DNA from: Peptococcaceae bacterium BRH_c4a | Lineage (GTDB): Bacteria > Bacillota > Desulfotomaculia > Desulfotomaculales > Desulfocucumaceae | DNA length: 64,000 nucleotides | Direction: 5' to 3' | Assembly (NCBI GenBank): GCA_000961585.1 | Contig: LADN01000049.1 | Location: 1-64,000 of the forward strand | In this document: positions 39,848 to 64,000 of the stretch, piece after piece | How positions within the stretch are numbered: position 1 is the first letter of the stretch | Layout: the number at the start of each line of letters is the position of its first letter | Made by a program: the position numbers and the translations under genes | Notes under the pieces: model-generated | Seen by the model: the letters and a program-made list of their open reading frames with translations, nothing else | What the model was told of the DNA's origin: nothing | Databases searched by the model: none

Positions 39848-41383
39848 TCAGGCCGTCTCTATGCGGGGGAAAAGGGGATCCCCCCTTCTGACCACAGTCC
39901 CCACCGGAAAGCGGCCCCAGATAAGGGACTCCCAGGTGTGCAGGTCCGGCCTCCGGTCAATTCCCAGCAGGGGCCAAACCCTTGGGGCCATAAGGGGCAT
40001 AAAGGGTGAGGTGATCACCGTGATAAAGCGCACCGTTTCGGCCAGATTATAAAGTACGGTATTCAGTCGATCGGTTGTTTCCGGGCTTTTGGCCAAAACC
40101 CAGGGGGCTGTCTCGTCAACGTATTTATTGGCCCTGGAAACCAGGCGCCAGACAGCTCCCAGCGCATTGGACAGCTCTCTTCTCTCCATCAGATCCATAA
40201 CCACACCAGGGGTTTCCGAGGCCAGCGCAATCAGTTCTTCGTCCGGCCCTTCCACCTGGCCGGGGCTGCCTGTCACACCCTTGAAATACTTGTCCGCCAT
40301 GCCCAGTGTGCGGCTGACCAGATTGCCCAGATCATTGGCCAAATCTTTGTTGAGCCTGTTTATCAGGGCATCCTCGGAATAAAGCCCGTCAGTTCCGAAG
40401 CCCAGTTCCCGCAGCAGATAATACCTGATGGCGTCAACCCCGTACTTGTCTATAAGCACATGGGGATCCACCACGTTTCCCTTGGACTTGCTCATTTTCC
40501 CACTGTCCAGCAGGAGCCAGCCATGGCCCACCACCTGCCTGGGCAGGGGTATGCCGGCCGCCATCAGTATTACCGGCCAGATGATGGCGTGAAAGCGCAC
40601 TATATCTTTGCCTACCAGGTGTATGTCGGCGGGCCAGAATTTTTGATACAGACCGTCATCACCGCCGTATCCCAGTGCCGATATGTAATTGGTCAGGGCG
40701 TCAACCCACACGTATACCACGTGTTTGGGATCAAAGGGAACCTTTATTCCCCAATCAAAGGTGGTGCGGGAAACACAGAGGTCCTCCAGGCCGCTTTTGA
40801 TAAAGCTGACCATTTCGTTGCGCCTGGTAACAGGCTGAATGAATTGAGGATTCTCCTCAATGTGTTTTAGGAGACGATCGGCATATTTGGACATCCTGAA
40901 AAAGTAGCTTTCTTCCTTCAGCAGTTCCACCGGCCTGCCGCAGTCTGGGCAGTTCCCATCCTCCAGCCGGGCCTCCACCCAGAATGTTTCACAGGGCGTA
41001 CAGTACCAGCCCTCGTAGCCGGCCTTGTAGATATCGTCCTGGCGGTACAGCCTTTCAAAAATTTCCGAGACCACCCTTTTGTGCCTTTCTTCGGTGGTGC
41101 GGATAAAGTCATTGTTGCTTATGGCCAGTCTTTCCCAAAGAAGTTTAAAACCCTCCACTATTTTATCCACATACTCCTGGGGTGTCTGCCCCCTGGACCG
41201 GGCGGCCCTGTCAATCTTCTGACCGTGCTCGTCGGAACCTGTCAGAAACCACACTTCATGCCCGGTAAGCCTCATGAACCTGGCGAAGGTGTCGGCAGCC
41301 ACTGTGGTATAGGCATGCCCTATATGCAGATTATCGCTGGGATAATAAATAGGTGTGGTGATGTAAAAAGTTTTCTTTTCCAT
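39848..41383 (-). CDS. metG: Methionyl-tRNA synthetase
   Basis: 511 residues. HIGH as HIGHAYTTV, zinc site CTPC..CPDC in the connective peptide (about 125-145), KMSKS as KMSKSKGN (about 298-305) and the C-terminal helical anticodon domain. It lacks a C-terminal tRNA-binding (EMAP) extension, so it is the short form. A T-box leader with a Met (ATG) specifier controls it. Confidence 0.97.
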   Translation of the reverse strand: MEKKTFYITTPIYYPSDNLHIGHAYTTVAADTFARFMRLTGHEVWFLTGSDEHGQKIDRAARSRGQTPQEYVDKIVEGFKLLWERLAISNNDFIRTTEERHKRVVSEIFERLYRQDDIYKAGYEGWYCTPCETFWVEARLEDGNCPDCGRPVELLKEESYFFRMSKYADRLLKHIEENPQFIQPVTRRNEMVSFIKSGLEDLCVSRTTFDWGIKVPFDPKHVVYVWVDALTNYISALGYGGDDGLYQKFWPADIHLVGKDIVRFHAIIWPVILMAAGIPLPRQVVGHGWLLLDSGKMSKSKGNVVDPHVLIDKYGVDAIRYYLLRELGFGTDGLYSEDALINRLNKDLANDLGNLVSRTLGMADKYFKGVTGSPGQVEGPDEELIALASETPGVVMDLMERRELSNALGAVWRLVSRANKYVDETAPWVLAKSPETTDRLNTVLYNLAETVRFITVITSPFMPLMAPRVWPLLGIDRRPDLHTWESLIWGRFPVGTVVRRGDPLFPRIETA

Positions 41384-55245: not shown

Positions 55246-56268
55246 TTAAACATTTTTTTCCGGTTTTGATAATATTTTTTTATAACCTATCAGTGTTTCT
55301 ACTGCCACATTATTCCAGGTATAATGCGATAGCATGCGATCCTTGAGTAGTCTTTGTTTTTCCAGATCAGTACTGGAAAATGCAGCCAGTACTGCATTTC
55401 TTATGGACTCTACGCTTTCCGGGTGGCAGTAGCAGGCAAGGTCGCCAAAATACTCCCGGGCCGATCCCCTTTCGGTGGTTACCACCCTGCATCCGGAGAG
55501 GGCGGCCTCCAGGCTGGCCAACCCCGGCGTTTCAAACCAGCTGGGCAGAGCGTGAACCCTGGCGGCTGCGTAGAGCGACGGGAGCCGCTGGTGATCCAGG
55601 CTGTTTATAAAGAACACGTTCTCCCCCGAAGAAATAACTTTCCGGAGGTATTCCCGGTCATTTACCGGACCGGCCAGGACCAGGGGCAGGCCGGTATTTC
55701 TCAGCGCCTCCGCCAGGGACAGCTGGTTTTTCCGCAGCGAAATCCTGCCCACACACAAAATGAAGTCCTTCATTCGGTGCAGCCGGTAAAATTCTTCGGG
55801 GTCGCCCCGGGCAAATACCGGATCCGCCCCGTTTGGAACCACGTGGCAGGGGGCAACTTGCCCGTACTGGAACCTGATCAGGTCTTCCTCCAGGCGGGAA
55901 TTGGGAAAGAGTATGCCCGCTTCCCGGAATATCTCCTTCCTGTGGCGGGCGGTGGAGCTCCAGGCATTCCTAAGTCTGCCGGGGGCGTCCGGAGAAGAGA
56001 GGAAGTCCCCGAAGTCCCAGTATATGGTGGAAACGGCCACAGGGGTGCCGTATTTTTTGGCGGCCCTGAAAAACCTATAAGTTTCCGCCACCCGGGTGGT
56101 ATTGAACAGGTGAACCAGATCGTATCCGGCGGTGGAGGAGACCGAGGTGGACACATCCACCTTGACCCCCAGCTTTTTCAGGTATTCTTTTGTCTTAAGC
56201 AGCTGGATGGAGTCTCCGGCCGGATTATCCAGGTAATCGGGCCTGATCTGAAACAAAACCTTGATCAT
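55246..56268 (-). CDS. Glycosyltransferase, family 4-like
   Basis: About 340 residues from the ATG at 56268 (IKVLFQIRPDYLDNPAGDSIQL). GT-B fold: KPL.V region FILCVGRISLRKNQLSLAEAL, then the nucleotide-sugar site PGLASLEAALSGCRVVTTERGSAREYFGD near 280-310. The acceptor is unknown. It starts the run of minus-strand glycan genes and lies just after the CgeB-like gene. Longer starts (56286 or 56313) are possible and would overlap that gene. Confidence 0.85.
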   Translation of the reverse strand: MIKVLFQIRPDYLDNPAGDSIQLLKTKEYLKKLGVKVDVSTSVSSTAGYDLVHLFNTTRVAETYRFFRAAKKYGTPVAVSTIYWDFGDFLSSPDAPGRLRNAWSSTARHRKEIFREAGILFPNSRLEEDLIRFQYGQVAPCHVVPNGADPVFARGDPEEFYRLHRMKDFILCVGRISLRKNQLSLAEALRNTGLPLVLAGPVNDREYLRKVISSGENVFFINSLDHQRLPSLYAAARVHALPSWFETPGLASLEAALSGCRVVTTERGSAREYFGDLACYCHPESVESIRNAVLAAFSSTDLEKQRLLKDRMLSHYTWNNVAVETLIGYKKILSKPEKNV

Positions 56269-56299
56269 AGTCGGGATTATCTCCATTGACACATTTATC

Positions 56300-57283
56300 T
56301 TACGAACCTCCAAACCGCCTAATGGCGGCCATCATCTCCGCGGCCCGGAGCCTGTAGGTGTGATTGCCGTAAACCTCGGCCTGACCGCTTGCGGCGATTT
56401 TTTTTCTCAAATCTTCCCTGCCGAGGTAAAATTTTACCACCTCAGGAGTTTCTTCGGGATCCTTGACCCAGACAAGGTGTTTGTGGTTTTCAAACATGTT
56501 TTCTATGGCCGGAGTCCACTGGGTCAGGTAGAAGGCCCCGCACCCGAGGGCCTCGAAGGTCCGCATGCTCATCATGGTGGACGAGGTGTCCGCCGAATGG
56601 ATGCCCAGCACTATCCCGGCCGAGGAGTACACGGCGGGCAGCTGGAGATAAGGCAGGTATCCCCCGTAAAACCGCCGATCCGCATGAAAGGGCCGGTCCG
56701 GGTCCGTCCACCATTCGTTGCCGTAAAGCTTTATATTGAAATTTCCTCCCAGCAGGGGCTTCAGCACCACTTCCAAGCCCTTGAGGCGGGGAGTGTATTT
56801 ATGGTAATTGTTCCCTACAAATACAAGGTCATGTGAGAATTGCTTCACCGGGGCCACTTTTCTGTGAAAAGAGGGAAGGCAGGCAAAATGCAGGTAACTG
56901 GCGCTTATCCCCCGGGATCTGTACATGGAAACGCATTCAGCGGCCGGGGTGAATACATGCCTGGCCCGGCGGGCCATGGGCAGTGAAAATGTCTTAAATT
57001 CGACGGGGTCGTCTATGGCCCAGAAAAGCATGGACAGCCCAAGCTCACTGAGTGCTGGAAAAAGAGCCCGGGCGGGTTTTAATATGGCAGCGCCCTCCAC
57101 AAAAATGAAATGGGGCCGGAAAGCCTCCAGTTGCTGCCGGAAATAGTCCGGCCGGCGGGCAAAATTTCCCGGCACATCGATTATTTTCACCTCTTCTCCG
57201 GCTTCGGCCAGACCCTGGGCCAGGCCGTGGCTGATAATCGGCGGCCCGTTGACAAAAAGGATTTTCAAGATCAAGCCCTCCAT
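56300..57283 (-). CDS. CgeB-like glycosyltransferase (spore maturation type)
   Basis: 327 residues from the ATG of EGLILKILFVNGPP. CgeB/DUF3880 domain: FVEGAAILKPAR, LFWAIDDPVEFK, FTPAAECVSMYRSRGI, LVFVGNNYHKYTPRLKGLE, then the C-terminal glycosyltransferase DTSSTMMSMRTFEALGCGAFYLT. B. subtilis CgeB acts on the spore surface late in sporulation. This links the cluster to spore glycans. Upstream are two short GGGGACATTCC repeats. Confidence 0.88.
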   Translation of the reverse strand: MEGLILKILFVNGPPIISHGLAQGLAEAGEEVKIIDVPGNFARRPDYFRQQLEAFRPHFIFVEGAAILKPARALFPALSELGLSMLFWAIDDPVEFKTFSLPMARRARHVFTPAAECVSMYRSRGISASYLHFACLPSFHRKVAPVKQFSHDLVFVGNNYHKYTPRLKGLEVVLKPLLGGNFNIKLYGNEWWTDPDRPFHADRRFYGGYLPYLQLPAVYSSAGIVLGIHSADTSSTMMSMRTFEALGCGAFYLTQWTPAIENMFENHKHLVWVKDPEETPEVVKFYLGREDLRKKIAASGQAEVYGNHTYRLRAAEMMAAIRRFGGS

Positions 57284-57288
57284 TAACC

Positions 57289-57317
57289 GGGGACATTCCT
57301 TTTGCCGGTGTGTCCCC
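57289..57317. repeat. REP-like GGGGACATTCC palindrome, copy 1
   Basis: GGGGACATTCC...GGTGTGTCCCC, a short inverted repeat just upstream of the CgeB gene. Related to the copies at 57361 and 60319. Confidence 0.7.
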
Positions 57318-57360
57318 ATTCCTCTATACTATGTGGGTTATTGAGCAAATGCCATTGTAT

Positions 57361-57537: not shown

Positions 57538-58233
57538 ATGATTTTGACAACGGGCAGAATCAAGATCGCCCTCGCCTTTATTCTGTCACTGGCGATGGCA
57601 ACAGTTCTCTTTCTCTCTCCGGCGGCGGCGGCCAGCTACGTAAAGATTACATCCAACGGCAGCGGCGGCTACAACTACCAGTACGGCGCCGGATATCCTA
57701 CCGGCGGGGTCACAGGCGGAAGCAATTCCGTTACGTTTAAATCTCCATACCAGTATGCGCCCAAGACACCTGCTCCGGCTCCGGCTCCCTCTCCGGCTCC
57801 CACCCCCCCCTCCGGCGGCGGAACCGTTAATCCGGCCCCGGCAACCGGGCTTTCCGCAGGGGAGCAGTACCTGGTGGCCGCCATAAACAGGGAAAGGGCC
57901 GCTGTGGGTGCGCCCCCCCTGCAGGCGGACATGCAGCTGGTGGGCCTGGCCCGGGCGAAGTCCTCGGACATGATCGCCAACAACTATTTCAGCCACACTT
58001 CGCCCACCTACGGTGGTCCGGGCCAGATGCTGACAGCCGCCGGGGTTAAATTCCGGGCCATGGGTGAAAACATCGCCGGCAACAGGACCGTGGAAGGCGC
58101 ACATACCCGCCTGATGAACAGCTCCGGGCACCGCCAGAATATACTGAACCCATCCTTTACCCACGTCGGGATCGGTGTGGTGGCGGGCGGACCCTACGGG
58201 CTGATGATTACGCAAATATTTATCGGCAGATAG
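57538..58233 (+). CDS. Secreted single CAP-domain protein
   Basis: 231 residues, ATG after AAGGAGG. Signal peptide at 1-32 (FILSLAMATVLFLSPAAAA). Short Gly/Tyr region, Pro/Ala/Ser linker (PAPAPAPSPAPTPP), then one CAP domain at 105-231 with INRERAAVGAPPLQAD, NNYFSHTSPTYGGPGQML, GENIAGN, GHRQNILNPSFTHVGIGV. It is closely related to the repeats of the triple CAP protein at 16074. It is on the opposite strand to the glycan genes around it. Confidence 0.9.
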   Translation: MILTTGRIKIALAFILSLAMATVLFLSPAAAASYVKITSNGSGGYNYQYGAGYPTGGVTGGSNSVTFKSPYQYAPKTPAPAPAPSPAPTPPSGGGTVNPAPATGLSAGEQYLVAAINRERAAVGAPPLQADMQLVGLARAKSSDMIANNYFSHTSPTYGGPGQMLTAAGVKFRAMGENIAGNRTVEGAHTRLMNSSGHRQNILNPSFTHVGIGVVAGGPYGLMITQIFIGR

Positions 58234-58812: not shown

Positions 58813-59541
58813 CTATTTTTTAAAACGGTATCTTTTGCCTTTATGCACGATGGTGCTGGTGGGGCTGGTTTTCTTTGAGTTTGCCAAGTGCTGCCTGTAT
58901 TCATTGATGAATTTTTCCCGCAGCCGGAAAAACTCTGCGTCAAACTGCTGGTTGCAAATATGCGACACCCAGGGGCTCAGTTGCGTGGGCACCACCACCT
59001 TTAAATTCCTTTTCCAATACTCCAGGCTCTGGGACAGGTCGTAAAAATGAAATCCGTCGATCAGGTCCTGCCGCCAGGGAATGTCGCGCTGGGTGGCCAG
59101 CAGGCACCCGTCGGCCACGGTGACCCATTCGTACGGTCGGGCTGTGGGTGGACCGCCCATTGAACCATTGACCCTGGGCACAAAAATGTTCCCGAATATC
59201 TCGTGGCAGTCCCACAGCCAGGTAAACAGGTGCGGGTCCAGGGGCAGCCTGCGGCCCCCCAGCACACCGATCATGCCGATGTCCGGGTCGGACAGGAAAA
59301 TATTGTTTATGTGGTGCAGGAAAAAGGGCTCCAGGATATGTACGTCCTGGTGGATATAAATTTTGTACCTGGCCTGGGTCCTGACCATGGCCAGGTTATA
59401 GGCGCTGGTCATGCTGACGCAGTTATGCATGGGGATGTACTCCACGCTGAACCCCTGTTTATCCAGCCGGGCCAGGTGGGCCAAGCACTGTTCGTACTGC
59501 GCATGGTTGTTGACACAGGTTATAAAAGCCACTGTAATCAT
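58813..59541 (-). CDS. Glycosyltransferase family 2-like (StrF/Glyco_tranf_2_5 type)
   Basis: 242 residues. GT-A fold: AFITCVNNHAQYEQCLAHLA, SMTSAYNLAMVRTQARYKIYIHQDV (a DxD-like HQDV), GMIGVLGGRRLP, then WVTVADGCLLATQRDIPWRQ. The last 25 residues are polar with a basic end (TSTIVHKGKRYRFKK). It has an adjacent paralogue (59562-60287), about half identical. It adds sugars to the spore or cell-surface glycan; donor unknown. Confidence 0.85.
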   Translation of the reverse strand: MITVAFITCVNNHAQYEQCLAHLARLDKQGFSVEYIPMHNCVSMTSAYNLAMVRTQARYKIYIHQDVHILEPFFLHHINNIFLSDPDIGMIGVLGGRRLPLDPHLFTWLWDCHEIFGNIFVPRVNGSMGGPPTARPYEWVTVADGCLLATQRDIPWRQDLIDGFHFYDLSQSLEYWKRNLKVVVPTQLSPWVSHICNQQFDAEFFRLREKFINEYRQHLANSKKTSPTSTIVHKGKRYRFKK

Positions 59542-59561: not shown

Positions 59562-60287
59562 TCAGGTGACTCTATATTTTTTCCCCTGATATTTGACGAT
59601 GCCTTTTCTCTGATGAGACCCTGGCGGGACAAGAAACTGATGGTATTCCCTGACGAAAGTGCGGCGCATTCTCTGGTAGCCCGGGGAGATTGCCCCGCTG
59701 GTGGAGATGTGTGCGCACCAGGGTGTTTCCTGCCGGGGAACCACCACCAGGTAACCCCTTTTCCGGAATTCGATGCTCTGGGAGAGGTCGTAGAAATGAA
59801 ACCCGGTAAAAAGGTCTTCCCGCCACGGGATATCGTACTGAGTAACCATGATGCAGCCGTCTATGAAATCAACCGGCTCGAATATACCCGCCGGATTATA
59901 TCGCTGCTCAATCCGGTTATTGCCGAGGTTGAAAATAGACCCCCATTTCTCCGGGCAGTTCCACACCAAAAGCGGGTTGCTGTTCATGTTCAGGTGCTTT
60001 CCACCCATCATGCCGATCATGCCCACCAGAGGGTTGGACTTGAAAATATTGTTGATCTGGCGGAGAAAATGGACGTTCCGGATAAAGGTGTCCTGGTGCA
60101 GGTAAACCTTGTATTTCGATGCCGACTTCCGCATGCCGGCGTTGTAAGCGGCAGTCATACTGTGCTGGTTTCGCACGGGACACATCTCGAAGTGAAACCC
60201 TGTTTTATCCAGCACATGGATGTGACCGCAACATTGATCATAAAGCGCCTGATCATTAACACAGGAAATAAATGCTACCGTTTCCAT
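59562..60287 (-). CDS. Glycosyltransferase family 2-like, paralogue
   Basis: 241 residues from METVAFISCVND, the same start as the neighbour. Same fold: SMTAAYNAGMRKSASKYKVYLHQDTFI, GMIGMMGGKHLNMN, FIDGCIMVTQYDIPWR. It ends with the same basic KGIVKYQGKKYRVT. The two genes are a tandem duplication with diverged donor sites. A REP-like repeat lies at 60319-60349, directly upstream. Confidence 0.85.
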   Translation of the reverse strand: METVAFISCVNDQALYDQCCGHIHVLDKTGFHFEMCPVRNQHSMTAAYNAGMRKSASKYKVYLHQDTFIRNVHFLRQINNIFKSNPLVGMIGMMGGKHLNMNSNPLLVWNCPEKWGSIFNLGNNRIEQRYNPAGIFEPVDFIDGCIMVTQYDIPWREDLFTGFHFYDLSQSIEFRKRGYLVVVPRQETPWCAHISTSGAISPGYQRMRRTFVREYHQFLVPPGSHQRKGIVKYQGKKYRVT

Positions 60288-60318
60288 CTTTATGTCCCTT
60301 CCCGAAGATATAAGGCAT

Positions 60319-60349
60319 GGGGACACACCTCCTTCTGAGGAATGTCCCC
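60319..60349. repeat. REP-like GGGGACACACC palindrome, copy 3
   Basis: GGGGACACACCTCCTTCTGAGG then AATGTCCCC, the inverse of the other two copies, between the GT2 paralogue and rmlB. Confidence 0.7.
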
Positions 60350-60361
60350 GATGGAATGTCC

Positions 60362-61378
60362 TTAATTTAAGGCTTGGTATTGCCGCTCCCTGTTTTTCAG
60401 CCCCTCCCACCAGCGGGCGTTCTTTACGTACCAGCCCACTGTCTCCTCCAGACCGGCGGAAAAGGGCATTTCAGGCCTCCAGCCCAGGCGGTCGAGAATT
60501 TTGCCGTAATTGACGGCATACCTTCTGTCGTGTCCGGAACGGTCCTCCACAAAGCGCAGCAGCGTGAGCGGCTTGTTTAGGATCCTTAAAATTCCGGTTG
60601 CTATTTCAATGTTTGTTCTCTCGTTGCCGCCGCCAATGTTAAATACCTCCCCGTCCCCAGCTCCGCTTGCCGCCACCATTTCAATGGCCCGGCAGTGATC
60701 CTGGACGTGCACCCAATCCCTGGTGTACAGTCCATCCCCGTATATGGGAATGGGAATGTCCCGCAGGGCGTTGGTAATGGCCAGAGGGATCAGCTTTTCC
60801 GGGTATTGATAGGGACCGTAATTATTGGAACAGCGGGTTATGATCACCGGCAGTCCGTAAGTCCTGTGATAGGACAGGGCCAGCAGATCGGCCGCCGCCT
60901 TGCTGGCGGAATAAGGGTTATTGGGGGACAAGGGGGATTCCTCGGTGAAGCATCCTTCGGTGCCCAGGGATCCATATACCTCGTCGGTGGAAACCTGAAT
61001 AAACCTGATCGGGGAACCCTGGCGGCTTTTGTTCAACAAGTTGGCTTTCAACACTGCCTTCAAGAGTGTCTGGGTACCCAGCACATTGGTTTTTATAAAC
61101 GGCGCAGGGTCGGAAATGCTCCTATCCACATGGGATTCAGCGGCGAAATTTACCACTGCGTCGATGTCCGGGCCGATTGTTTTTTCAATCAGCCGGGTGT
61201 CGGCAATGTCTCCCCTGATCAGACGGTAGGCCGGACTGCATTCAATATCTCCAAGGTTTTCGGGATTTCCGGCATAGGTTAACATGTCAAGGTTAACAAC
61301 CCTGTGATTTTTTTTAATGGAGTATCTTACGAAGTTGCTTCCGATAAAACCTAATCCTCCGGTAACCAACAACCTCAC
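60362..61378 (-). CDS. rmlB: dTDP-glucose 4,6-dehydratase
   Basis: 338 residues from GTG 61378, preceded by AAAGGAG at normal distance. SDR fold: RLLVTGGLGFIGSNFVRY (GxxGxxG), VNFAAESHVDRSI, STDEVYGSLG, YSASKAAADLLALSYHRTY (YxxxK), NYGPYQYPEKLIPL. It makes dTDP-4-keto-6-deoxyglucose for rhamnose or amino-sugar synthesis. rmlA is divergently placed at the window end; rmlC/rmlD are not visible here. Confidence 0.95.
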   Translation of the reverse strand: MRLLVTGGLGFIGSNFVRYSIKKNHRVVNLDMLTYAGNPENLGDIECSPAYRLIRGDIADTRLIEKTIGPDIDAVVNFAAESHVDRSISDPAPFIKTNVLGTQTLLKAVLKANLLNKSRQGSPIRFIQVSTDEVYGSLGTEGCFTEESPLSPNNPYSASKAAADLLALSYHRTYGLPVIITRCSNNYGPYQYPEKLIPLAITNALRDIPIPIYGDGLYTRDWVHVQDHCRAIEMVAASGAGDGEVFNIGGGNERTNIEIATGILRILNKPLTLLRFVEDRSGHDRRYAVNYGKILDRLGWRPEMPFSAGLEETVGWYVKNARWWEGLKNRERQYQALN

Positions 61379-61437
61379 ACCTATGTCTCCTTTCATTCCG
61401 CCGGATAACTGCCCTGGCGATCGGCAGAATGTTAAAA

Positions 61438-61574: not shown

Positions 61575-62390
61575 TCAAATCCTTATTCTCTTTTGCGGAT
61601 TTATTTTAACACATGGGAGGGAGGCAGGTTTTTTCACACCAATGCCCGCCTGCCGGGCAGTCCTCTGGGAAGCGTAACGGGGTCCCCAGGTATACATTCC
61701 CTGTTCGTCACAGGAAATAATTCCGTCAGCGGCGTGTCCCAGGTCGAAGGCCACCCGCCCGCAGTCCTTCACCGCCGCCGCCACTATCTTGGCATTGGCC
61801 CCGGCGGAGATGAAGGCCAAGTCAAAATTTAAAAGGGGCAGGCTGTTGATCACTCGGTCCAGATCCCGGTAGTTCCTTAAATTAAGCACCCCTCTTATAT
61901 TGGTGAATTTATAACGGTCCTCCAGAATTCCCCTGAGCCGGGCCATGGGCTTGCCTATCAGCAGTATGGCGGTGTGCCTAAACAGTTCATAGAACACCGG
62001 CATGGACACGCACTGTCTGTTTATGAAAGCATAGCAGGTGTCCGGAGGGCAGAAGCTGTAATACCTGAAAATTTTTACAGTCAGGGGGTACCAGCAATAG
62101 CAGTCCGTCTGGCTCAGCACACCCACCACGTCGGCCTTTCGGACGGCGTCCACCAGCCGATCCCTGGCCGGCAGATTTGGTATGGCTATGCCCGAGTATC
62201 CTTCTCCGGCCACAATGCTGTACATCCGGATCAGTTCTTCCGCCGTGTGTATGCTGTTTTGGGCCAGGAGGAAGTTCTCCCCGTCACCGATTCTTACCAG
62301 GGCAAAGGGTTTTTTCTTTGTCACGCATTCGTATACCCGGTCGATCAAATCTCCGGGACTGTTAATGCTGAAAGGAAGCAGGTCAGACAT
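61575..62390 (-). CDS. GT-D fold glycosyltransferase-like protein
   Basis: 271 residues. GT-D/DUF1792-like start PFALVRIGDGENFLLAQ, then GIAIPNLPARDRLVDAVRKADVVGVLSQTDCYCWY, and VAFDLGHAADGII. These proteins transfer glucose to protein-linked glycans in Gram-positives. Its ATG overlaps the stop of the small DUF1858-like gene by 8 bases, so the two are translationally coupled. Confidence 0.8.
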   Translation of the reverse strand: MSDLLPFSINSPGDLIDRVYECVTKKKPFALVRIGDGENFLLAQNSIHTAEELIRMYSIVAGEGYSGIAIPNLPARDRLVDAVRKADVVGVLSQTDCYCWYPLTVKIFRYYSFCPPDTCYAFINRQCVSMPVFYELFRHTAILLIGKPMARLRGILEDRYKFTNIRGVLNLRNYRDLDRVINSLPLLNFDLAFISAGANAKIVAAAVKDCGRVAFDLGHAADGIISCDEQGMYTWGPRYASQRTARQAGIGVKKPASLPCVKINPQKRIRI

Positions 62391-62622
62391 TTTTTCTTAC
62401 CATGTATTTCCTGTATCTGATCTTTATTTTAGGGATTATTTCCGGCTGAAGGATTGCCCGGGTTAAATCCCTGATCAGTTTATCCAGGGAAATATTGTTA
62501 TGCCGGGCCAACTGCCCGACGGTTTTCGGCGCTCCTTTTCATCCATAGCACCCGATGTCGTAAAAGGTAAGTATTCTCCGGGTGGACGGATGCCTTTTGA
62601 CCAGTTCTTCCAGGTTGTCCAT
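62383..62622 (-). CDS. DUF1858-like small protein with an in-frame TGA (candidate selenoprotein)
   Basis: 79 codons. Reading TGA as U gives HPSTRRILTFYDIGCYGU and then KGAPKTVGQLARHNNISLDKL, the DUF1858 pattern GxxCxxC-xxAP-x-TV in which the second Cys is U. The TGA is at 62539-62541. The frame after it is open for 50 more codons and ends by overlapping the start of the GT-D gene. It follows the upstream glycosyltransferase stop by 13 bases. Without recoding the product would be 27 residues. DUF1858 proteins are small, often redox-linked. A Cys-to-stop nonsense mutation is the simple alternative. Confidence 0.6.
62502..62520 (-). promoter_or_regulatory. bSECIS-like hairpin after the in-frame TGA
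   Basis: On the minus strand GTCGGGC-AGTTG-GCCCGGC, a 7-bp stem (one G-U) with a 5-base loop having G at its second position. The loop begins 26 nucleotides after the TGA. Bacterial SECIS elements sit about 16-37 nucleotides after the UGA, with G in the first two loop bases, so the geometry fits. GC-rich hairpins are common in this DNA, so this is supportive only. Confidence 0.5.
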
Positions 62623-62634
62623 TCCTGAAATCAC

Positions 62635-63660
62635 TCACATCAACCCCTTCTCTCTCAGTGTCAGGTCCATTATTGATGCGGCCACGGCGGCCCGCTGCCG
62701 CCAGGAGTTGCGGTAGGCCTCTTCCACCCGGAAGTTCCTGTTTTCCTCGGTGTCCCGGTGGAGAGCGTGATGCATCAACAGGTTAAACTCCTCCGGCGTC
62801 CTGCCCACCAGCACCCCGCCCATGCCGGCAACCTCCGGCAGTGGGGTGGAAATCACCGGCTTGCCTGCGCTGAGGTACTCATACATTTTAATCGGGTTGC
62901 AGCCCTCAGTCATTGAAGTCAGCCGGAAGGGTATCAGGCAGATGTCAAAACACTGGATGTAAGAGGGCAGCATCCGGTAATCCCTGTACCCCAGAAAGTG
63001 CAGGTTGGCCTTTTCAACGGGCGGGGCGATGTTATACAGGGGCCCCACAAAAATAAAACTGAACTGCGGATTCACCCCGGTAATATAATCTATTAATTCC
63101 CAGTCCAGCCAGGAAGCCAAGGCGCCTACGTAGCCGATGATCGGACGTCCCTTGTCCCGGACATCGGACGGCACAGGCAGGTGGCCGTGCCGGGCTCTGG
63201 AAAAGTGGTCAAAATCCACCCCGTTGGGACACAAATGGACGTTATGGTGTTCCTTTTTATTTTCTTCATAAAGTTTCCTGGAAGTGGCGAAAATTACATC
63301 CGCCTTCTTCCGGAGATTCGGCAGGTAAGGACCCCACTCGGAAAATTCTTCCGTAGGGTGGTCAAGGGCGTCGTAAGCCACCATGTGAGGCCGGTATTTA
63401 TTGATCCGCCTGACCATGGAAGGCGCATCCAGCCACAGAATTCTGGGCTCCGGGTGTATTATGCTCAGCGGGTCCGTTTTGGTTGCCACAATAAGATTTT
63501 CTGACAGCCTGCTAACCGAGGGGGGGGACTCCCGGCGGGCAGGATTGCAAAAAATGCAGTTGTAACCAAGGGCAGCAAATTGCACAAACATTTGCTGCGG
63601 CCGCTGAACCATCCACCTGAAGGGTATTGACGGCGGATGAATTATTGTAGGCAAAAACAT
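62635..63660 (-). CDS. Glycosyltransferase family 1-like
   Basis: 341 residues. GT-B: N-terminal IPFRWMVQRPQQMFVQFA, ILWLDAPSMVRRI, then KGRPIIGYVGALASWLDWELI, the donor loop FRLTSMTEGCNPIKMYEYLSAGKPVISTPLPEV (about 265-297). The sugar and acceptor are unknown. It is the first visible gene of the minus-strand unit that continues through the small DUF1858-like gene to GT-D. Divergent from rmlA. Confidence 0.88.
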   Translation of the reverse strand: MFLPTIIHPPSIPFRWMVQRPQQMFVQFAALGYNCIFCNPARRESPPSVSRLSENLIVATKTDPLSIIHPEPRILWLDAPSMVRRINKYRPHMVAYDALDHPTEEFSEWGPYLPNLRKKADVIFATSRKLYEENKKEHHNVHLCPNGVDFDHFSRARHGHLPVPSDVRDKGRPIIGYVGALASWLDWELIDYITGVNPQFSFIFVGPLYNIAPPVEKANLHFLGYRDYRMLPSYIQCFDICLIPFRLTSMTEGCNPIKMYEYLSAGKPVISTPLPEVAGMGGVLVGRTPEEFNLLMHHALHRDTEENRNFRVEEAYRNSWRQRAAVAASIMDLTLREKGLM

Positions 63661-63805: not shown

Positions 63806-64000
63806 ATGTCGAAAGCTCTTGTACTATGCGGGGGCGCCGGCACCCGGCTGAGGCCCTTTACCTTTGCCAGCGCCAAGCAGGTGCTGCCGGTGGCCAACAA
63901 GCCAATCGTCCACCATATAATGGAAAAGCTGGCCCTTGCCGGCATAAATGACGCCGGGGTAATCATCTCTCCCGAGAAGGGAAGCATTGTGAAGCATTGT
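63806..64000 (+). CDS. rmlA: Glucose-1-phosphate thymidylyltransferase, 5' part
   Basis: 65 codons to the window end. MSKALVLCGGAGTRLRPFTF (nucleotide loop GGAGTRLRP), AKQVLPVANKPIVHHIMEKLALAGI and GVIISPEKG. It makes dTDP-glucose, the substrate of RmlB. The start has GGGGGGG six bases away. The end carries a tandem GAAGCATTGT repeat (63981-64000); the rest of the gene is not in the window. Confidence 0.9.
   Translation, partial: MSKALVLCGGAGTRLRPFTFASAKQVLPVANKPIVHHIMEKLALAGINDAGVIISPEKGSIVKHC

Follow-up and report, generated by a model that had tools for sequence, protein, structure and literature searches.

Proteins of the DUF1858 type that carry a CxxU motif have already been tabulated as a selenoprotein family, with WP_012065717.1 (PMC9312934, PMC13188914). 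The bSECIS model quoted in PMC13188914 specifies a hairpin with a 3-9 nt loop, a 4-16 bp stem, a G in the first two loop positions, a distance of 16-37 nt from the UGA, and MFE <= -7.5. The gene described here lies in a 64,000-nt stretch (the window) of contig LADN01000049.1 from Peptococcaceae bacterium BRH_c4a. It very probably specifies a genuine selenoprotein, about 83 residues long, that acts as a redox protein, a judgement that does not extend to any role in glycan assembly. The apparent novelty lies in a distinct branch that has its own tail and keeps a fixed place, within a surface-glycan cluster, between the genes for a TuaH-like glycosyltransferase and a GT-D enzyme.

Gene model and in-frame TGA

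The gene was placed at 62383..62634 on the minus strand, which is the coding strand of the ORF. Read from ATG 62622, the frame contains 79 codons with a single internal TGA and a terminal stop TGA at 62385-62383, and a sequence-only reading had taken this as the gene; GTG 62634 is the likelier start, giving 83 codons. The GTG (62634-62632) is most likely the true start because it abuts the stop of the upstream glycosyltransferase (ATG-TGA-GTG), is preceded at 9 nt by a Shine-Dalgarno-like AAGGGG (62644..62649, minus strand, read from the sequence), and gives a product with which the N-termini of all three orthologues align gap-free. Inspection of the sequence found no properly spaced ribosome-binding site for ATG 62622. 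The encoded protein has a DUF1858-like domain followed by a basic C-terminal tail (P-x-x-x-P-K-I-K-I-R...), and the 3′ end of the gene extends 8 bases into the GT-D gene (ATG 62390), in agreement with the sequence-only reading.

The only internal TGA (62539..62541, minus strand; read 62541-62539) falls at the second Cys position of CxxC (GCYG-TGA-KGAP) and is read as U32 of 83 within C29-Y-G-U32; its number and position agree with the sequence-only reading. The first Cys of the motif (TGC, 62548..62550, minus strand) is invariant in four orthologues. The frame stays open past the TGA as claimed, for 51 codons rather than the 50 counted. In each of the three orthologues (L025, L026 and L027) this same codon is TGA, the only in-frame stop inside the gene. 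The in-frame UGA is thus aligned with the Cys of homologues and kept in other species, as expected of a bacterial selenoprotein. Homologues in the same gene context, for which a comparison of TGA with Cys codons had been suggested, all carry TGA and none TGC or TGT. A TGA confined to a single strain had been named as a contrary result; three other species share it.

Protein identity between orthologues was alike on the two sides of the TGA (upstream vs downstream, e.g. 0.68 vs 0.58; 0.37 vs 0.36), and pairwise comparisons revealed no frameshift around it. Past the TGA, third codon positions were the most frequent class of change in all orthologue pairs. Taken together, these comparisons indicate that the region downstream of the TGA is translated. 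CxGU, TVGQxAR and the tail were conserved at the protein level among the four orthologues.

Protein family and predicted fold

The window copy matched DUF1858 (PF08984) at E=1e-4 with 22.8 bits, under the gathering cut-off of 32.2 bits, and is therefore named 'DUF1858-like'. All four orthologues matched this Pfam family at E<1 (best 6.9e-9). Against TIGR03980, the window copy scored 29.9 bits (E=4e-7) compared with a curated cut-off of 44.95 bits, and the best orthologue tested scored 36.1 bits. The predicted structure (pLDDT 72, a modest confidence, with the CxxU loop and the C-terminus the least certain parts) had the DUF1858 structures 2k5e and 2k53 as its best PDB fold matches, with the active-site CxGU at the position of CxGC; 2k5e was also the best PDB match by sequence (E=3.8e-6). 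A weaker likeness to ScdA/YtfE N-terminal domains was observed (ScdA model E=3e-4 for one orthologue; PDB 9r7j, E=0.003). From the CxxU motif and the family, we infer that the product is a small selenol/thiol redox protein.

bSECIS hairpin

A hairpin, GUCGGGC-AGUUG-GCCCGGC, follows the TGA at 62502..62520 (minus strand), with a 7-bp stem and a 5-nt loop that has G at position 2. The stem starts 19 nt past the TGA and the apical loop AGUUG at nt 26; the stem length and loop G noted before were borne out, and nt 26 is the start of the loop, not of the hairpin. The element agrees with the model in PMC13188914 in all four respects (5-nt loop, 7-bp stem, G at position 2, nt 26, with -12.1 kcal/mol). 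It is a putative binding site for SelB.

For the synonymous recoding test, the protein was held fixed and codons were drawn from each species' own usage. For the four species, 1.7, 3.2, 1.5 and 0.8% of recodings reached the observed hairpin energy or lower, the 1.7% being the window copy. Among all TGA triplets in the window, 0.9% had an equally stable hairpin whose loop carries G at position 1 or 2. Of 10 sampled DUF1858-like genes with a TGA, 9 have the hairpin, pairing 5-7 of 7 positions; it was absent from 20 Cys-containing DUF1858 genes, in which 1-5 of 7 positions pair (Mann-Whitney p=6e-5 for Sec-form vs Cys-form, the rows being related). Homologues all with TGC or TGT and lacking a hairpin had been named as evidence against a selenoprotein; the hairpin proved instead to be a feature specific to the Sec form. 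A GGGCAG...GCCC hairpin, encoded by (V/L/I)GQxAR codons, was also present in five further TGA-containing DUF1858 genes of the phylum. The D. palustris hairpin is imperfect in strict register (5/7 pairs), and covariation is limited, the branch being known from four species only. A similar hairpin follows the UGA in most of the selD genes in these genomes (GUCGCAG-GUN-CUGCGAC, loop at nt 34), which is a useful positive control for the window hairpin.

Selenocysteine machinery

The host genome assembly comprised 98 contigs with a completeness of 100. A selB gene was found over the cut-off (E=5.5e-111) with selA adjoining it (E=1.6e-183), and ARAGORN called a tRNA-Sec whose anticodon is UCA (74 bits). 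The genome has two distinct selD genes, at G000:C97:18372-19292 and G000:C78:60105-61022, and both contain a single in-frame TGA. All four components that the sequence-only reading had proposed to look for were therefore present, and their presence means that the organism is equipped to decode UGA as Sec. In the D. palustris assembly (84% complete), a full selB or tRNA-Sec was not found; a TGA-containing selD is present there.

The host genome also contains a tRNA-Sec-like tRNA-Cys (selC*-type) with anticodon GCA at L012:1501-1597 (host C85:102163-102255); tRNAs of this kind, 93-97 nt long and over the Rfam tRNA-Sec cut-off, were likewise observed at L122, L124 and L127. In the host and three relatives, this tRNA lies directly 5′ of the selenium transporter gene yedE (host copy L012:1621-2709; TIGR04112, E=1.8e-146). 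A fourth relative (L132) has a match to the tRNA-Sec model beside yedE that ARAGORN did not call. selC* tRNAs are already known, and certain of them from other bacteria carry UCA as anticodon (PMC7609411); no mention of the linkage to yedE was seen.

Orthologues and distribution

Three orthologues at 34-41% identity came from a search of 100 relatives, and a pattern scan across 84,980 species recovered these and no others. They are carried by Peptococcaceae bacterium BRH_c4b, Desulfocucumis palustris NAW-5 and a Desulfovirgula MAG, and the four carriers span three genera and two families. With a four-row profile, the four members scored 128-153 bits and every other DUF1858 relative <50 (113 class genomes and 398 sampled phylum genomes). 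Among DUF1858-like proteins, the glycan branch formed a separate clade (support 96/84, 64 columns). No Cys-form version in the same gene slot was found in the 113 class genomes, the 398 sampled phylum genomes or the 84,980-species pattern scan, and a plasmid search for the selenoprotein gave no match. In two genomes of the phylum (L106, L107), a Cys-containing DUF1858 gene close to a GT-D cluster was considered and set aside: it is of the usual CxGC form and lies about 330 nt beyond a glycosyltransferase gene, outside the interval between GT and GT-D. Genomes of the same family without this GT-D and cluster were also without the selenoprotein gene, with selB in most of those checked.

Another Bacillota genome has tandem DUF1858-like matches (L039 and L113; G382:C5:40231-40413 and 40576-40758), one copy with a TGA (ACYSUGSPRNTALEQAAR) and the other without a stop. 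In the tree, the TGA copy stood closest to the glycan branch.

Genomic neighborhood

Upstream of the selenoprotein gene is a glycosyltransferase of group 1, TuaH-like below the cut-off (62635..63660), and downstream is a GT-D fold glycosyltransferase (61575..62390; PF22882, E=8e-56; NF040628, E=4.5e-51), both on the minus strand and both with an orthologue adjacent in all four loci. The same cluster contains, also on the minus strand, a dTDP-glucose 4,6-dehydratase (RmlB; 60362..61396; TIGR01181, E=3e-135), two Glyco_tranf_2_5 glycosyltransferases (58813-59541 and 59562-60410; PF13712) and two further glycosyltransferases (55246-56313, and the PF13524-type 56300-57319). A divergent nucleotidyltransferase of the sugar-nucleotide pyrophosphorylase type begins on the plus strand at 63806 and runs past the window end at 64000 (PF00483, E=3.6e-50 on L010:3807-4874); such a gene is also found beside the L035 and L036 orthologues.

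The order glycosyltransferase, selenoprotein, GT-D was kept in 4/4 genomes, each time among further glycosyltransferase genes, while the other neighbors differed. In the other species the spacing from selenoprotein to GT-D was roughly 20 to 120 nt, and the overlap was not conserved. GT-D relatives of this type were found in the class only in the four carrier genomes and in one distant case (32% identity). GT-D genes beside a related GT and without any selenoprotein (L071, L108) occur in that fifth genome and in others of the phylum. As such pairs exist, the selenoprotein seems to have been added in this lineage, and those enzymes do not in general require it.

A Cys in the GT-D motif YCWYP was present in all four partner enzymes and in 0 of about 35 other aligned GT-D sequences. 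This residue is a candidate redox target; it could equally mark common descent. Cys enrichment of the upstream GT was also considered as a sign of redox coupling; no general enrichment was seen and the idea was not convincing.

Beside the cluster in 4/4 genomes is a gene for a protein of about 200 residues (xxQxIFTYESIF..., 'TIFTYESIF'; L010:4898-5533, L035:2914-3495, L036:3008-3589 and L037:4168-4764). It gave no Pfam or NCBIfam match and is predicted to be mostly beta; a fold search brought up no informative match. Inside the glycan cluster, a CAP-domain protein with a repetitive GSGGYxYxxG leader is encoded at 57538-58233 (plus strand), and similar-looking genes lie near the L035 and L036 orthologues.

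Proposed mechanism and alternative explanations

The reading of the gene as a CxxU selenoprotein, made earlier from the sequence, is supported by the conserved TGA, the Sec machinery and the hairpin, and the results that it had named as contrary did not appear. SelB with Sec-tRNA-Sec(UCA) would recognize the hairpin 19-37 nt after the UGA, and selenocysteine would, almost certainly, be inserted at U32. The product would then combine a DUF1858-like helical domain, a C-Y-G-U redox pair and the conserved basic tail, and would probably function, judging from family and motif, as a small cytosolic selenol/thiol redox protein. In surface-glycan assembly it might, for example, keep a Cys of the partner GT-D or glycosyltransferase reduced; alternatively, the enzyme might be switched by the redox state of the cell. 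Redox service to the adjoining surface-glycan enzymes, for which gene position is the argument, is put forward tentatively, at somewhat less than an even chance; GT-D and GT pairs without a selenoprotein (L071, L108) count against it. The fuller proposal of a Sec-dependent redox protein dedicated to the surface-glycan pathway, reducing or switching a GT-D cysteine (e.g. that of YCWYP) and linking selenium and redox state to glycan assembly, is rather unlikely as it stands.

The simple alternative offered before was a Cys-to-stop mutation in a decaying DUF1858-like pseudogene. One step separates TGC or TGT from TGA and the window copy scores under the DUF1858 cut-offs, but the same TGA in three other species at 34-41% identity, in frames open elsewhere, excludes a pseudogene or strain-specific mutation for practical purposes, as do coding constraint past the TGA and a bSECIS hairpin in each orthologue; with the full Sec machinery in the genome, the probability left to it is negligible. 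Reading of the UGA as another amino acid (e.g. Cys or Trp via a UGA-reading tRNA) is very improbable. The genome does hold a second, tRNA-Sec-like tRNA-Cys, and some selC* tRNAs elsewhere have a UCA anticodon (PMC7609411), but the anticodon of the selC*-type tRNA here is GCA, tRNA-Sec(UCA) and SelA/SelB are present, and the hairpin has SelB-type geometry, with a similar one after the selD UGA in these genomes.

The ORF could also be a selenium-sensing leader, in which readthrough of the UGA would carry ribosomes to the stop overlapping the GT-D start for re-initiation, such that selenium would set GT-D expression and the peptide itself would matter little. The 8-base overlap of the stop with the GT-D ATG in the window and the tight order of the three genes fit this model, but a gap of roughly 20 to 120 nt replaces the overlap in the other species, and CxGU, TVGQxAR and the tail are conserved in the protein, which argues for a working protein; we regard the leader as improbable. 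A real selenoprotein merely co-located with the glycan genes, with for instance a general part in Fe-S or persulfide handling comparable to that of the ScdA/YtfE N-terminal domain, is quite conceivable, if short of an even chance. The resemblance to those domains and the ties of other DUF1858 members to anaerobic respiration and Fe-S contexts speak for co-location. Against it, the gene order is kept in four species, three genera and two families despite differing other neighbors, and genomes of the same family without this GT-D are also without the gene, though selB is in most of those checked.

Significance and comparison with known systems

The gene represents a rare, well-supported selenoprotein lineage that ordinary annotation would end at the UGA. 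It would place selenocysteine in surface-sugar assembly, a process for which no report of selenium use was found. If the glycan link is true, it would have no precedent, in the literature found, among selenoproteins that serve glycosyltransferases, and these anaerobes would couple glycan building to selenium supply or redox state. The branch also offers a clean contrast of Sec with Cys in one small domain, in which to study how coding sequence (the VGQxAR codons) accommodates a bSECIS. The sequence-only reading had held a selenoprotein of this type between glycosyltransferase genes to be new. This does not apply to the family, which is tabulated (PMC9312934, PMC13188914); for the glycan-cluster branch no report was found. 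No report linking selenoproteins to glycosyltransferases was found in a literature search that left aside Haft and Tolstoy (2025) on selenoprotein neighborhoods.

The Cys-form DUF1858 proteins, including TIGR03980 ('hybrid cluster protein-associated redox disulfide domain'), share the fold and the CxGC position; they differ in using Cys, in lacking the GGGC...GCCC hairpin and in lacking this gene context, and the window copy is under the curated cut-off of TIGR03980. The ScdA/YtfE (RIC) N-terminal domain, DUF542, shows weak similarity in sequence and fold, but the window protein is without the di-iron domain and has CxxU where ScdA/YtfE have a CC pair. The DUF1858 CxxU selenoproteins (PF08984) have the same domain and Sec at the second Cys of CxxC, and their type A relatives (L044, L052, L056, L059, L061) have a bSECIS hairpin at the equivalent GQ-x-AR codons. 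The glycan branch differs from these selenoproteins in forming a clade of its own, in a C-terminal tail of about 20 residues, in a spacing one codon shorter, and in its seat between glycosyltransferase genes.
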